Source: Gemmata massiliana (GTDB lineage Bacteria > Planctomycetota > Planctomycetia > Gemmatales > Gemmataceae). Taken from it: DNA of 64,000 nt. Below the pieces are notes generated by a model. It was not told the DNA's origin. It saw only the letters and a list, made by a program, of their open reading frames with translations, and made no database searches. Positions 1-42,021 of this stretch are shown one piece after another. A program made the translations under genes and the position numbers. Positions within the stretch are counted from its first letter, which is position 1. Each line of letters opens with the position of its first letter. Location: NCBI GenBank assembly GCA_000531095.1, contig HG799462.1, positions 55,370 through 119,369 on the forward strand, read 5' to 3'.

Positions 1-557
1 TTGGAGTCAGAACCTAACCCCCCAGCCCCCTTCCCTGAGAAGGAAGGGGGAGAAGTACCTGCGTCGCGCGTTTGCTCTCCCCTCCCTGAAAAAAAGGAGG
101 ATGTGGGGAGCGATTCCCACCCGAACGCCACGGTGTCCGCGCCCGGTTTGTCCGTGAAGTCGTCCGTCACCAGCTCCGACACGCGGCGCAGTACGCCATT
201 CACAAACCCTTTGGCTTTCAGCGCGCCGACATAGGGAGCAAGCTCGACCGTTTCGTTGACGGCCGCGTGCTTGGGGACGTGTGTCAGGAACGTGAGCTGG
301 AACGCACCGAGGCGCAGCAGATCCCACACGCGCGGTTGAACCGCGTGAAACGGAAGGTGAATGAACGGCTTCAGGATCGCGTCGAGCGTTCCCGCCCGCC
401 GGGTGACGCCGAACACCAGTTGCGTGACAAATCGGCGGTCCTGGGCCGTGAGGCTCACTTTGGTGAGTACGTCGTCTATGAGTTCGGCCGCGAACCCGTC
501 GCGCGAGCGCGAGCGGTTCAGCACGTCGGCCGCGACCTGCCGGGCGGTAATCGTCAT
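1..557 (-). CDS. rsmB: 16S rRNA (cytosine-967-C5) methyltransferase RsmB/Sun, N-terminal part, cut by window edge
   Basis: Only the N-terminal NusB-like RNA-binding domain is inside the window; the SAM-dependent methyltransferase domain lies beyond base 1. The ATG at 557-555 overlaps the TGA of fmt (554-556) by 4 bp, which fixes the start and implies translational coupling. The translation begins MTITARQVAADVLNRSRSRD and contains the typical segments DRRFVTQLVFGVTRR, PRVWDLLRLGAFQL, PKHAAVNETVELA and KGFVNGVLRRV. From about base 112 down to the edge the frame passes through a low-complexity palindromic repeat (separate entry), giving Gly/Ser/Pro-rich residues with no counterpart in the family. 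No stop occurs in the visible part. The order def-fmt-rsmB matches the common bacterial operon. Identification is firm; whether the full gene is functional cannot be judged here. Confidence 0.85.
   Translation of the reverse strand, partial: MTITARQVAADVLNRSRSRDGFAAELIDDVLTKVSLTAQDRRFVTQLVFGVTRRAGTLDAILKPFIHLPFHAVQPRVWDLLRLGAFQLTFLTHVPKHAAVNETVELAPYVGALKAKGFVNGVLRRVSELVTDDFTDKPGADTVAFGWESLPTSSFFSGRGEQTRDAGTSPPSFSGKGAGGLGSDS
12..112. repeat. Palindromic repeat element inside rsmB, same family as the one that splits rnr
   Basis: The segment has two C-rich/G-rich hairpin halves: CCTTCCCTGAGAAGGAAGGG near 29-49 and CTCCCTGAAAAAAAGGAGG near 82-100, joined by a short spacer. The same architecture (CCTTCCCTAAGAAGGAAGGG, spacer, CCCCTCCCCTAAGCGGAGAG, GGGGAGGGG) occurs at 35597-35713 inside the RNase R gene. 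Here it is read through in frame on the minus strand and adds about 33 codons, including PPSFSGKG, to rsmB. Ends are approximate and I could not identify a target duplication. Confidence 0.6.
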
Positions 558-16107: not shown

Positions 16108-17910
16108 GTGGCTGCGAAAGGGGAATCGGCGGCAAAATCCAGGATGGCAGTATCCGGTTGGTTCTTGCTGAACGGGTTCGTTGTTGCTTCCTGGGTGGCT
16201 CACATCCCGCGGCAAGCGACCGCACTGGAAATACCCCCAGACACACTTGGGCTCGTACTCCTCGGTATGGCGGTGGGATCGATACTGGGAATGACCGCCG
16301 CTCCCGCTACCATCCGCCGCATCGGGGCCGATCGCGCGGCGTGGATCACCGGAATTATCTTCGCCCTGCTGATTCCGCTCCCTATTCTGGCGGGCTCGAT
16401 CACTTTTCTTGGCGTCTCGCTCGTCGTACTCGGAGCTTTTCACGGTCTGCTAGATGTCACCATGAATGCCGCAGCAGCGCGGTGCGAACGCGCCCTCGGG
16501 CGGCCGGTGATGTCCGCGTTCCACGGCTGGTTCAGTGTCGGTATGGTGGTGGGGGTAACGGGCGGCTCCGCATTACTCGCTACCGGCCTCACGCCTGTGG
16601 CGCACGCGGCGCTGGTGGTCGGCATCGGCGTGCTCTTGGTGTCCATGTGCCGCCCGGCTGCTCTTCCCCAATCCGACACCCCCGCCGTCGCGCATGTGAC
16701 TCCTCGCGACACAATCAATCACCGTGCTTACACGCTAGCGGCCATCGCGTTCGTGTGCCTGTTCCTCGAAGGGGCGATGGCGGACTGGGCCGGGCTGCTC
16801 GCGGTCGCGTTCGGGGCGGGGCCAACGGTTGCGCCGCTCGCTTACGCGGCCTTCACCGCGACTTGGGCCGGTGGGCGGTTCCTCGGGGACCGGCTGACCG
16901 CGTCGGTCGGAGATGTCGTGATCGTTCGGGCCGGAGGGCTTTTGGCAGCCGCTGGTATCGGGCTGGCTCTCCTTGCGGGTTCGCCGATCGGTGTGGCAAG
17001 CGGCTGTGCGGTTGCCGGGTTCGGGCTGGCGAACGCGGTTCCGCTCCTCTTCCGCGCCGCGGCGGGAACGGATTCGGCCGGACGCGGACTCGCCCTGGTG
17101 ACCGGAATCGGGTACACCGGCTTTCTGGTCGGCCCGCCACTCGTGGGTTTCACTGCTGCCGCGGTCGGCTTGCCTCGCGCGATGCTCTTGGTCGTTGCCG
17201 GTGGGGTGCTCTTATCCCTCGGAGCGAATGCACTCCGGCGGCGCAAAACCCTTGCGGCACCGACGCAGATCGACTGCCGGGCGGTCCTCTTCGACATGGA
17301 CGGGACGCTGGTCGATTCGACGGTCGCGTGCGAGGTGCTGTGGCGCGAATGGGCGGCCCGCGTCGGGGTCGATCCCGACCCGATCCTCGCGGTTCACCAC
17401 GGCCGGCGGCCCGAAGAAACGCTGCGCCTGACTTACCCGGAACACGCGACGCCCGAAACGGCCGAATGGGTACAGGCCCGGCAGATCGGCGTGACGGACG
17501 GCCTGAAACCCGTTGCCGGTGCGGAGGCGCTTCTGGACGCACTCGCCGGTCGGCCGTGGGCGGTTGTCACGTCGGCGTCGCGGGCACTGGCTGAAAGTCG
17601 GCTCCGAGCGGTTGGCCTATGGCGCGAGGGATTGTTGATCGGGGCAGACGATGTGATCGAAGGGAAGCCGTCACCGGAAGGATACCTGGCAGCAGCCCGG
17701 GCATTGGGCGTACCGCCCGGGGAATGTGTGGTAGTAGAAGACGCGCCGGCCGGTATCGAAGCGGGCACACGAGCGGGAATGGCCGTCATCGCGGTGGCTA
17801 CCACTCACGCGCCCGCTGCTCTTGAAACCCCGCACGTGGTACGCGACCTCGCGGCGGTCTCGGCCACACTCGGGCATACGGGCGGTATTCGTCTCGTGCT
17901 GGTCGGGTAA
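16108..17910 (+). CDS. MFS transporter fused to a HAD-family sugar-phosphate phosphatase
   Basis: A 600-residue fusion. Residues about 1-380 form a 12-helix MFS permease of the YbjJ-like type (GLVLLGMAVGSILGMTAAP, FHGLLDVTMNAAAARCERA, FLEGAMADWAGLL). Residues about 389-590 form a complete HAD phosphatase of the beta-phosphoglucomutase/2-deoxyglucose-6-phosphatase class: motif I LFDMDGTLVDST with nucleophile Asp396 and acid/base Asp398, motif II Ser in VVTSASRALAES, motif III Lys in EGKPSPEGYLAAARALG, and motif IV VVVEDAPAGIEAG. No stop or frameshift separates the two halves. The start is GTG 16108; an ATG twelve codons in is an alternative. A natural reading is uptake or export of a sugar coupled to dephosphorylation in the cytoplasm (inference). 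Divergent DeoR gene is the likely regulator. Confidence 0.87.
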   Translation: MAAKGESAAKSRMAVSGWFLLNGFVVASWVAHIPRQATALEIPPDTLGLVLLGMAVGSILGMTAAPATIRRIGADRAAWITGIIFALLIPLPILAGSITFLGVSLVVLGAFHGLLDVTMNAAAARCERALGRPVMSAFHGWFSVGMVVGVTGGSALLATGLTPVAHAALVVGIGVLLVSMCRPAALPQSDTPAVAHVTPRDTINHRAYTLAAIAFVCLFLEGAMADWAGLLAVAFGAGPTVAPLAYAAFTATWAGGRFLGDRLTASVGDVVIVRAGGLLAAAGIGLALLAGSPIGVASGCAVAGFGLANAVPLLFRAAAGTDSAGRGLALVTGIGYTGFLVGPPLVGFTAAAVGLPRAMLLVVAGGVLLSLGANALRRRKTLAAPTQIDCRAVLFDMDGTLVDSTVACEVLWREWAARVGVDPDPILAVHHGRRPEETLRLTYPEHATPETAEWVQARQIGVTDGLKPVAGAEALLDALAGRPWAVVTSASRALAESRLRAVGLWREGLLIGADDVIEGKPSPEGYLAAARALGVPPGECVVVEDAPAGIEAGTRAGMAVIAVATTHAPAALETPHVVRDLAAVSATLGHTGGIRLVLVG

Positions 17911-33233: not shown

Positions 33234-34238
33234 ATGTCCCGCCGTTTTGTCGATCAGCTCCGCGACGGAGATAACCTCGAAGACGTCTATTTGGTCACGG
33301 ACAAGCAACTCCGCGCGAACCGGAACGGCAATCCCTACCTCCTTTTGGAACTGCGGGACCGCACCGGGGGGATTCAGGGGCGTATGTGGAACGCGGGCGA
33401 CCACATCGCCCGGGGGTTCGATCCGGGCGACTTCCTGTTCGCCACCGGCAAAGTGCAGATGTTCCAGGGCGCGCTCCAGGTGATCCTCACCTCGGTGGAG
33501 CGAGTGGAATCGCAAAAGGTCGAGTTCACTGACTTCCTGCCGCAAACCGAGCAGAGCATCCCGAAGCTCACGGAGCGGCTCCGAAATTACCTGCTGCGGC
33601 TCGGTAACCCGCACCTGCGGGCGCTCGCCGAGTGCTTCCTGATGGACGACGCTTTCATGCGTGCGTTCTCCACCTGTCCGGCCGGGGTGAAGTTGCACCA
33701 CGCCTACGTAGGCGGGTTGCTCGAACACACGCTCTCCATGATGGACGCGGCCGACAAGGTGTTGCCGCTCTACCCCGTTGTGGACCGCGACCTCGTGCTG
33801 ATGGGGATCTTCCTGCACGACGCCGGAAAGACTCGGGAGCTGACGTTCTCCCGCGCCTTCGGGTATTCCGATGAGGGACAGTTGGTCGGCCACATCCCCA
33901 TCGCGGTGGCGATGCTGGCGGAAACCGCAACGCGGGTGCCGGACCTGACCGGAGAACCGTTCCCGCGGGAACTAATGCTCCGCATCCAGCACATGATTTT
34001 GAGCCACCACGGGGAACTGTCCTACGGCAGCCCAAAGGTGCCGATGACCCCGGAAGCGATGCTGTTGCACCTGATCGATCTCATGGACACGCGGATGCAC
34101 ATGGTGCTGCGCGACCTGAAGGACGACCGCAACAACCCGACCGCGTGGACGCCGTACAACCACAACCTCGGCCGCCGCATTTACAAGGGCGGCGCCCACG
34201 GCGACCTCTACGGCGAGGGCGGCGGGGGTTACGACTAA
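33234..34238 (+). CDS. 3'-5' exoribonuclease YhaM-like (OB fold plus HD domain)
   Basis: A 334-residue protein. Residues about 15-95 are an OB-fold nucleic-acid-binding domain (PYLLLELRDRTGGIQGRMWN). Residues about 140-300 are an HD metal-dependent hydrolase domain with KLHHAYVGGLLEHTLSMM, GIFLHDAGKTREL and MILSHHGELSYGSP. This is the order of Bacillus YhaM, which trims RNA and DNA 3' ends. It lies upstream of RNase R in the same direction, making a local RNA-decay pair; the gap between them is bounded by REP-like palindromes. Confidence 0.88.
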   Translation: MSRRFVDQLRDGDNLEDVYLVTDKQLRANRNGNPYLLLELRDRTGGIQGRMWNAGDHIARGFDPGDFLFATGKVQMFQGALQVILTSVERVESQKVEFTDFLPQTEQSIPKLTERLRNYLLRLGNPHLRALAECFLMDDAFMRAFSTCPAGVKLHHAYVGGLLEHTLSMMDAADKVLPLYPVVDRDLVLMGIFLHDAGKTRELTFSRAFGYSDEGQLVGHIPIAVAMLAETATRVPDLTGEPFPRELMLRIQHMILSHHGELSYGSPKVPMTPEAMLLHLIDLMDTRMHMVLRDLKDDRNNPTAWTPYNHNLGRRIYKGGAHGDLYGEGGGGYD

Positions 34239-34429: not shown

Positions 34430-36752
34430 ATGTCTGATCTGCTCTCAAAAGTTCTGCACGCTGTCACCGCAAAGAGCTACGTCCCGCTCAAGGCCAAGCC
34501 GCTGTTCAAGCGGCTGAACCTGCCCGACGACGAGTACCCAGCGTTCCGTAAAACGGTGCGTGAACTCGTTCGCACGGGGCGACTCGCGCTCGCCCGAAAC
34601 AACACGCTCCGCGCCGCGGACATCCACGGCACGGTCACCGGCGTGTACCGGCGCGCGACGTCCGGGCACGGGTTCGTCCGGCCGCACGCGGTCGACGGCA
34701 TCTTTAAACCCGAAATTTTCATCCGCGAGGACAAGGGCCTCGACGCCGCGACCGGCGACGAGGTCATGGTTCGCGTCACGCGCGAGGCCACGCGCCTCAA
34801 GGACGCCGCGGGCGAAATCGTGCGCGTACTGGAGCGCGCGACCCGCACGTTCGTCGGCACCTACTTCGAGCGCGACCGGCAGACGCTCGTCCGCGTAGAC
34901 GGCAACGCCTTCACGCACAGCATCGCGGTCGGGGACGCGGGCGCGAAGGGCGCGAAGCCACAAGACAAAGTCGTCATCGAGATGCTGCGGTTCCCCACGC
35001 AGGACAGCCGCGGCGAGGGCGTCGTCACGGAGGTGCTCGGCGCGCACGGTCAGCCCGGCGTGGACACGCTCTCGGTGATCCGCGCGTTCGGACTGCCGGA
35101 AGCGTTCCCCGAATCCGCACTGAACGAAGCGCGGCAGGTCGCGAGCCAGTTCTCCGAAACCGATCTCCACGGGCGTGACGACTTCACGAACGAACTCGTC
35201 GTCACCATCGACCCGCCCGACGCGAAGGACTACGACGACGCGGTCAGCGTCACCATCGACCCGAAGACGAAGCACTGGGTGCTGACCGTCCACATCGCGG
35301 ACGTGGCCGCGTTCGTGAAACCAGGCGGCGCGCTCGACACGGAAGCCCGCAAGCGCGCGACGAGCGTCTATTTGCCGCAGAAGGTCATTCCGATGTTCCC
35401 GGAAGTGATCTCGAACGGCCTCGCGTCACTGCAAGAGGGCAAAGTTCGCTACGTGAAGACCGTGCGGATGGAATTCACGCCGGGCTTGCAGAAGGGCCAC
35501 GTCACCTTCGCTAACGGCGCGATCCGCAACCGCAAGCGCTTCACCTACGACGAGGTGCAAGAACAGTTAGACGCGATGGAGGGGAAGAAGCAACCTACCC
35601 CCTAACCCCTTCCCTAAGAAGGAAGGGGGAACAGAGCCAAACGCAGCAGACACGAAACGATCTGCGACGGTTTTAAGCCCCTCCCCTAAGCGGAGAGGGG
35701 TTGGGGAGGGGTTGCAACCTGAGTTACTCCCCGAACTCCTGGCGATGCTCCGGCGCATGCGAGACCTCGCACTGTTGCTTCGCAAGAAGCGGTTCCGGCG
35801 CGGGGCGCTGGAACTGACGATGCCCGAGGCCGTACTCGAATACGATGCCGACGGGCGCGTCAGCGGGGCACACTTCGCCGAAAACAATCTCAGCCACCAG
35901 ATCGTCGAAGAGTTCATGCTCGCGGCGAACGAGGCGGTGGCAGAACACTTCACGCGGTACGAAGTGCCGTTCCTGCGCCGCGTTCACCCCGCACCCAACG
36001 AAGAAAAACTCGAAGCCTTCGGCCAGTTCGCGGACCTGCTCGGCTACCCCATCAAGCGGGTACAGGACCGGTTCGAGCTTCAGCGTGTACTGACCGAAAC
36101 CGCCGACAAACCGGAGCGAGCCGCGGTCCACTTCGCGCTGTTACGCAGTTTAAAGCAGGCCACGTACTCGCCCATCCAGGACGAACACTACGCGCTCGCG
36201 AGCCAGCACTACTGCCACTTCACCTCGCCGATTCGCCGGTACCCGGACTTGCAAGTTCACCGGTTGCTGGACAAGTGGATCAAAACCGGCTCCGCGAGCG
36301 CGAATACCGAGGAGCTGGTCGCACTCGGGGAGCACTGCTCGAAACTGGAGCGCCGGGCCGAAACCGCCGAACGCGAACTGGTGAAACTGCGGCTCCTGAC
36401 ATACCTGAGTTCGCGCATTGGCGAAGCGCTCGACGCGGTGATTACCGGCGTCGCAGATTACGGGTTCTTCGCTCAGGCCGAACGTTTCCCCGCTGAAGGA
36501 TTGGTTCACATTTCGTCGCTAGTGGACGACTACTACTGGTTCGATGAGAGTTCGCACACGCTCGAAGGCCGGCGCACGAAACGCCGGTTCCGCCTGGGGG
36601 ACCGCGTGCGGCTGGTCGTCGCGCGCGTCGATTTGCAGCGGCGAATGCTCGATCTGCGTCTGGCCGACACCCACCCAAAAGCAGAAGATGACCGGGGCGA
36701 CGCCCTCCCCAACTACGGCCGCGTTCCGAAATCCGGGAGGCGCCGGAAGTAG
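34430..36752 (+). pseudogene. rnr: Ribonuclease R, interrupted by a small palindromic insertion
   Basis: RNase R degrades structured RNA processively from the 3' end. The 5' part (34430-35605, 391 codons) has an N-terminal winged helix, cold-shock domains (TSGHGFVRPHAVDG) and the first half of the RNB domain with the four catalytic aspartates in DPPDAKDYDDAVSV. It stops at TAA 35603-35605 inside the inserted element. The 3' part resumes in another frame from 35712 with the rest of RNB (FTSPIRRYPDLQVHR) and an S1 domain (VADYGFFAQAERFPAEGLVH). Removing 35597-35720 joins codon 389 (Pro) directly to the Glu codon at 35721 and gives one 732-residue protein. As it stands the enzyme is split inside its catalytic domain. 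Re-initiation near 35712 or 35743 could still give two fragments. Confidence 0.88.
35597..35713. mobile_element. MITE-like palindromic element (117 bp) inside rnr with 7-bp target duplication
   Basis: The element is flanked by GCAACCT at 35590-35596 and again at 35714-35720. It starts ACCCCCTAACCCC and ends GGTTGGGGAGGGGTT, giving imperfect inverted ends, and each half is itself a hairpin: CCTTCCCTAAGAAGGAAGGG on the left and CCCCTCCCCTAAGCGGAGAG with GGTTGGGG on the right. It has no coding capacity, so it must be moved by a protein encoded elsewhere. A relative lies in rsmB at 12-112. Confidence 0.85.
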
Positions 36753-41059: not shown

Positions 41060-41605
41060 TAATCCCGGATGGGTCGGCCGGCCGGCCTGTAAGCCGGGTT
41101 TTGTCCCCGCCCTTTCGGACGGTGACGGTCATTTATCTAGCCCCGCCGTTGCCGACGGGATCGAGCGGTCTACCCGGGGATCGTAACGGGTCGGGCCGAC
41201 CCTGTCCCCTGCTTGACCTTGCTTCCGGTGGGGTTTGCCGAGCCGACGAGTCACCTCGCCGCTGGTGCGCTCTTACATTAAGGGCTCGCGCCCCGCACCT
41301 TTTCACCCTTACCAACGAGTAAAGGAAAAGGAAAAAGTCGGAAGGCAAAAGGGAAAAATTAGGAAGACCAAATGACCGACGCCGTTCGCAGCCATCTCTT
41401 GCTTTTCCTTTTATCTTTGCCCTTTTTCCTTTTTACTTTTCCTTTACTCGTTGGCGGTACACTTTCTGTTGCACTTTCCCGCCCGTTGGCGGTGCGAGCC
41501 GGGAAGCTCGCGACCGTTACCGGGGGTGGACGTTATCCACCACCGCGCCCTATGAAGCCCGGACTTTCCTCCCGAACAAGATCCCGAGGTTGGGATTCGG
41601 CCCGA
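41060..41605 (-). ncRNA. rnpB: RNase P RNA (class A) with greatly extended P12 helix
   Basis: Read on the minus strand, the conserved elements appear in order: GAGGAAAGTCCGGGC (41557-41571), GGGAAAGTGCAACAGAAAG, GGTAAGGGTGAAAAGGTGCG, TAAGAGCGCACCAG, GGCAAACCCCACCGGAAGCA and, near the 3' end, ACAAAACCCGGCTTACAGGC. These are the class A RNase P core. The P12 position (41312-41454) holds a 143-base hairpin whose outer 19 bp, CCAACGAGTAAAGGAAAAG and its complement, pair perfectly; normal P12 helices are far shorter. The total of about 540 nt exceeds the usual 350-400. Ends are approximate because P1 pairing is not clear. Confidence 0.92.
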
Positions 41606-42021
41606 AGACGCCGCACGCGGAATCTACCCCGAGTGCCTGCGTTCCGACGAACCGAGTCCCGACCCCGGAACCTTGTCCCGGCGACCGTCCGGCCGACCGA
41701 CAGACCCAATTGCATCGTAGCTCGCGGCGGCCCAGAAAAGAAGGGGCGCAGAGTGTCTGGTATTGGGGATCATTGTTCTGGCACTCGCCCAATTCTCATG
41801 ATACCTTCGCCATTCTCGCGCCCCTAACACGAAGCGGGATCTCGTTCCGGGCCGTTGATCCGTACCGGAACCGCGCGGACTCCATAGATCAAAGCGAGAG
41901 TCAACAGCGACCGGCCGTTCGGCCCAATAACACGGGCCCCGGTCCCAACGCGGCGCCGCACCGCGAATTCGTACAATGTCCGCTCCCGTAACCACTTAAT
42001 CACCACGCAAAGGGCACCACA
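41606..42021. other. Gap between rnpB and gnd
   Basis: About 416 bp, with the rnpB promoter expected at its left end (minus strand) and the gnd promoter at its right end. Small frames on both strands have no supporting features. I see no repeat, tRNA or other RNA gene in it. Confidence 0.4.

Follow-up and report, generated by a model that had tools for sequence, protein, structure and literature searches.

We assume, with a probability of about 0.7, that the rnr gene of Gemmata massiliana (genome G000) harbours a coding palindrome, that the short arm of this palindrome is an assembly error at the repeat, and that a single full-length RNase R bearing an extra loop is produced. The insert in rnr is a copy of a dispersed, apparently non-autonomous palindromic repeat. 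A copy of such an element that comes to lie in a tolerant protein loop and in the right phase would add about 40 residues (PNPLTPFPKKEGGTEPN...VLSPSPLRGGVGEGL) and leave the gene unbroken, because the consensus of the repeat features exactly one stop-free frame per orientation. In the assembly, a left arm two bases short creates a TAA codon and a change of frame.

The gene lies in the window, the 64,000-nucleotide stretch of contig HG799462.1 that was analysed, and is interrupted as assembled. Its N-terminal part (34430-35605, plus strand; 391 residues and a stop in the list of open reading frames) covers positions 5-381 of the 711 positions of TIGR02063 and ends, by sequence and translation, at a TAA (35603-35605, plus strand), past which rnr goes on in a different frame to 36752. 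A frame scan with translation places the C-terminal part (393 codons and a stop; TIGR02063 positions 389-710 of 711) at 35571-36752 of the plus strand, its frame being open back across the entire element. The in-frame stop, the change of frame, the two copies of GCAACCT and the surplus of 124 bp noted in the preliminary description of this DNA are all present, and removal of 35590-35713 arithmetically leaves 732 codons. The same description took the insert for a non-coding element, which does not hold: read in the C-terminal frame, the insert is wholly free of stop codons from 35571 onwards. The site of the loop is placed by alignment with the G006 protein between residues 382 and 392 of Bacillus subtilis RNase R (8cdu), and by the Pfam match between RNB positions 138 and 143. 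Upstream of rnr, as had been proposed, a YhaM-like 3'-5' exonuclease gene is present in the list of open reading frames (33234-34238, plus strand); Pfam OB-fold and HD domains were found in it, and its match to NCBIfam NF010007 has an E-value of 5.9e-59, which is below the family cut-off. A second rnr elsewhere in the genome was considered and rejected, since a Pfam RNB search of the 96.5% complete genome returned two matches, both of them halves of the present gene. The named relatives of the RNase R include Gemmata metagenome genomes.

The ends of the element are set by the family alignment and consensus, and from the match of the consensus to the window the element therefore spans 35592-35713 (plus strand), that is 122 bp in this assembly as compared to a family consensus of about 124 nt. 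The preliminary description was right in calling it a small palindromic element. The region is rich in hairpins (z = -3.27 for the RNA fold and -3.43 for the DNA fold; between -3.3 and -3.6 when the rnr copies of G. massiliana and its nearest relative, G008, are taken together), it is repeated in the genome, and it contains a first hairpin at 35606-35628 and a second at 35677-35712 (both plus strand, from the DNA fold, the second also from alignment with G008). The core of the second hairpin, CCCCTCCCCTAAGCGGAGAGGGG, reads by eye as the reverse complement of its counterpart in G008, and this inverted core would fit a flipping of the palindrome between the two genomes. The right arm at 35692-35711 (GGGGAGGGGTTGGGGAGGGG in the consensus, GGAGAGGGGTTGGGGAGGGG here) shows the pattern of a candidate G-quadruplex. 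No Rfam family reaches its threshold at the insert; the best match, mir-2954 with 22.8 bits against a cut-off of 96, was rejected.

The consensus was built from 40 copies, taken from 39 fetched loci of the G. massiliana genome, and the two rnr copies. It begins with AACCTAACCCCCTAACCCCCTTCCC, continues through a hairpin, a variable centre and a second hairpin, and ends with GGGGAGGGGTTGGGGAGGGGTT. AACCT stands near the start in 37 of the 42 aligned copies and the full GCAACCT in 15 of them; the left part of the supposed target duplication (35590-35596, plus strand) is therefore mostly the element's own 5' end. The right GCAACCT (35714-35720, plus strand) is located immediately outside the element and reads GCAAACT at the right flank of the same insertion in G008. 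The exact target duplication of the preliminary description is thus given up. In total the element has 51 matches in the G. massiliana genome, with partial and reverse-arm matches counted, and matches in 18 of the 59 genomes searched, the best of them in G008 and G012. At one orthologous site the entire element is reversed in orientation between G. massiliana and G008 (L084 versus L169, by eye), and partial copies of the rnr-type repeat and of a related one are located at the left edge of the window (11-101). An origin as a MITE with target duplication was rejected on account of the two flanks just described and of the single empty site examined, in HpnE of G012, where no target-site duplication is visible. 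An origin from a RAYT was rejected likewise, as the repeat is not tied to Y1 transposases: Y1_Tnp had no match in G008, and a copy lies nearby at only one (L283) of the six Y1_Tnp loci in G. massiliana and G012.

The nearest relative, G008, features the same element copy at the same site of rnr, 92% identical and in frame, within an 814-codon open frame that runs across the element, where the element reads as a putative loop extension within the RNB domain. Between the hairpins G008 differs from the window by one base. Its left arm has an additional in-frame repeat of six bases and, besides, two extra single bases; these two single bases alone account for the difference in frame. The extra sequence that was described as disrupting the gene is hence, in a close relative, an in-frame part of the protein. 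Judged from the sequences, the rnr copy would have arrived before the split of the G. massiliana and G008 lineages. The gene was open through the loop in all 16 congeners whose loop was read (G018, whose contig starts beside the loop, and G015, which gave no match, were left out); the rnr loops of G011 and G017 are short.

For G008 we also sampled the best 20 element-peptide matches after rnr by score, regardless of the surrounding frame. In 13 of these 20 copies both flanks code best in the frame of the element, two of them (L262 and L273) only weakly on the right; landing by chance in coding DNA with the right orientation, phase and length was put at about 1 in 18, which is a rough estimate. 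A Pfam scan covered 16 of the 20 open reading frames (the 13 and three others) and found different domains before and after the element in six of them: RecD2, MoeA, a SMUBP-2-type helicase, a phosphoribosyltransferase plus NAD-kinase frame, RecO and a type III polyketide synthase. In a further four, a single Pfam family matches in two stretches, the place of the second not being given, and the remaining ones have Pfam domains on one side or none. In G. massiliana, RecD2 and the helicase likewise have different domains around the element, and in MoeA one domain spans it. Sixteen frames of the G. massiliana genome span the element with at least 60 codons on both sides; several of these, with low coding scores, are probably due to chance. 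Among the matches listed, and with rows containing internal stops left out, frames of at least 300 codons surround 36 of 50 copies in G008 and 27 of 40 in G012 but 14 of 33 in G. massiliana. Long frames therefore enclose fewer of the copies in the latter genome, and this is compatible with genuine decay as well as with faults of the assembly. We infer that the element is translated.

The loops themselves appear to be shared by different palindromes. In G006, the insert in rnr is of another palindrome family, which matches 88 times in that genome, often on both strands of one place. This family also matches inside the G006 RecD2, as well as in the rnr sites of both G002 and G007. Palindrome-like peptides are present in rnr of G001, G005 and G014 (by eye, at the peptide level). 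The HpnE site holds differing inserts in G. massiliana, G008 and G001 and none in G012, G004 not being included in this comparison. As read from these sequences, corresponding loops of RNase R, RecD2 and HpnE carry different in-frame palindromes, depending on the Gemmata species.

The in-frame TAA and the frame change of the window arise because the left arm (35592-35614, plus strand; two C runs) is 2 nt shorter than in G008, according to the alignment with G008 and the arm lengths of other copies. The shortfall can be written as the loss of one A and one C, or as an A-to-C change together with two C runs that are each one base short. Arm lengths were counted for arms fitting a fixed pattern: 36 arms from the 39 G. 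massiliana loci (40 copies, the rnr copy excluded), 15 from 14 G008 loci (rnr included) and 10 from 7 G012 loci. All 15 arms of G008 and all 10 of G012 have 24 nt. In G. massiliana this holds for 20 of the 36 arms, and the other 16 have 22 or 23 nt (Fisher p = 5e-5). Twelve of the 16 short arms are explained by shortened C runs, with A-to-C allowed, and four carry other changes too. Among ten orthologous pairs compared by eye, the G. massiliana arm was shorter in three and equal in seven. The G5 run of the first hairpin is short in few aligned copies (by eye). A gene for an AMP-binding enzyme is open in G012 with the element in frame (720 codons), and one Pfam stretch at 56-556 spans the element at 328-370; in G. 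massiliana it is broken at its 22-nt arm, with further differences downstream. A ModF-like gene that carries the element has an open frame in G008; in G. massiliana it is shifted by one C just past the element.

Runs outside the element behave differently. Compared to G008, 1 of the 33 C or G runs of at least five bases in the window is short, namely that of the rnr arm, as are 3 of 151 runs of four; in seven other locus pairs with G008, 0 of 25 runs of at least five are short, and when G012 is the partner, this applies to 3 of 5 runs of five. General homopolymer error as the sole cause was therefore rejected, and a fault would have to be specific to the repeat. 454 sequencing is known for errors in homopolymer runs. 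The assembly used here consists of 22 contigs with 9,269,192 bases in all. Gaps of N fall within or next to three of the G. massiliana copies that were fetched, and the stretches of G008 and G012 that were checked have no N. The draft described for G. massiliana is similar in size and number of pieces, with 22 scaffolds and 9,249,437 bp, and was built from 454 reads at 22.4x (PMC4672568). Other differences of the window from G008 (2250, just upstream of a deformylase-like start, 16306, 30943 and 45503) lend no support to a generally poor assembly. At 16306 a transporter-like frame is open in the window and shifted by one base in G008, which looks like the broken side.

The most direct alternative takes the sequence as assembled: two bases were recently lost, RNase R is truncated or made in two pieces, and YhaM or other exonucleases compensate. 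The single pair of RNB matches in the 96.5% complete genome, the YhaM-like gene upstream and the accuracy of homopolymers outside the element are in favour of such a real break, which we nevertheless consider unlikely. The dN/dS between G. massiliana and G008 is 0.080 for the N half of rnr and 0.024 for the C half, and there is no excess of change on the G. massiliana side (12 residues against 16 for G008 to G012 in the C half, 27 against 26 in the N half). A pseudogene under relaxed selection is thus not borne out, although a very recent break would leave no trace. The same shortness moreover recurs at many unrelated copies and in a second gene, and is absent from all 25 arms sampled in G008 and G012. 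Since arms are short in 16 of 36 cases in G. massiliana against 0 of 25 in the relatives, and the draft is of the 454 type, a fault of the sequence is likelier than a loss of RNase R, and purifying selection on both halves agrees with this. An element-specific contraction in the G. massiliana lineage would yield identical data. By our estimate an artefact is two to three times as likely as a genuine change of the strain, and we infer that the shortness of the left arm is an artefact and that RNase R with its loop would be active.

Slippage in the C runs could also act as a phase-variation switch that toggles element-bearing genes, rnr having been caught in the off state. Arm length varies in G. 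massiliana only, with other runs stable, and two genes are hit at the same point. Runs of five to six bases are short for a slippage tract, none of the 25 arms varies in G008 and G012, and the assembly is possibly a 454 one, so that we give this explanation little credence. Two cell-size populations have been described in G. massiliana, a lead only; a genetic cause is absent from the account as far as seen (PMC4672568). Similarly doubtful is the wider notion that the coding palindromes of Gemmata are contingency elements, C-run slippage toggling RNase R and the AMP-binding enzyme, and that the loops are standing landing sites on which species-specific families replace one another. Removal of the insert from the message by splicing, or skipping by the ribosome between the GCAACCT copies, would make use of direct repeats and hairpins around an in-frame stop. 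However, G008 has not kept the repeat and needs no more than ordinary translation there, the element itself is open in the C-terminal frame, and Rfam has no match there at threshold; this is hardly credible. The loss, splitting or splicing of RNase R suggested earlier is unsupported, the stop existing only through an arm that is 2 nt short, as at many unrelated copies.

The Gemmata element behaves like protein-coding palindromes known from other bacteria. Rickettsia palindromic elements were reportedly described by Ogata et al. in 2000 and 2002. They are 100-150 bp long, form stable hairpins, have a conserved open frame and lie in frame in many conserved genes that are unrelated to one another and that tolerate them (PMC10969869, PMC2229807). 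The Gemmata element is likewise palindromic, hairpin-forming and dispersed, has one frame, and sits in frame inside unrelated conserved genes of which homologues without insert exist (HpnE of G012; the short rnr loops of G011 and G017). It differs in that its host is a GC-rich planctomycete and in that the same loops hold different families by species. By analogy, it may work like the Rickettsia elements, as a selfish or neutral repeat whose frame permits it to sit in protein loops. Intragenic REPs with GTAG or CGTC tags are palindromes inside genes, many of them in replication and repair genes; they occur in O. terrae, a member of the PVC group, and different REPs lie at about the same recB site in two Xanthomonas species (PMC3733652). 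REP units, however, have 20-40 bp and a tag at one hairpin end, whereas the Gemmata unit has about 124 nt and two hairpins, and its consensus has neither tag beside either stem (by eye); in copies that have the ACCTAC variant, the opposite strand shows GTAG close to the outer end. The ERIC/RU-1 and YPAL/RU-2 MITEs with open frames, small repeats with terminal inverted repeats, reportedly form in-frame fusions to host ORFs (PMC2229807, PMC2759123). The Gemmata element differs from these by showing no target-site duplication or parent transposase, at the one empty site and for the one transposase family examined. Among the matches listed for the open-licence literature, none described coding palindromes from Gemmata; further work may have been published elsewhere.

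What was taken for a broken exonuclease thereby becomes an example of probably translated repeat DNA from a planctomycete of high GC content. Coding palindromes are best known from Rickettsia, and the present case suggests that they are also common in several genomes of Gemmata. The 16 RNase R loops, some with different repeat families, represent a natural experiment on loop tolerance. The case is also a warning that, when genomes of this kind are assembled to draft level, false pseudogenes may arise precisely where these repeats lie. Elsewhere in the window, the RNase P RNA (41079-41613, minus strand; class A, 214.7 bits) features an insertion of about 120 nt that extends one helix, which we take to be P12. 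The insertion contains long purine and pyrimidine tracts, and the region differs from G008 by several indels.
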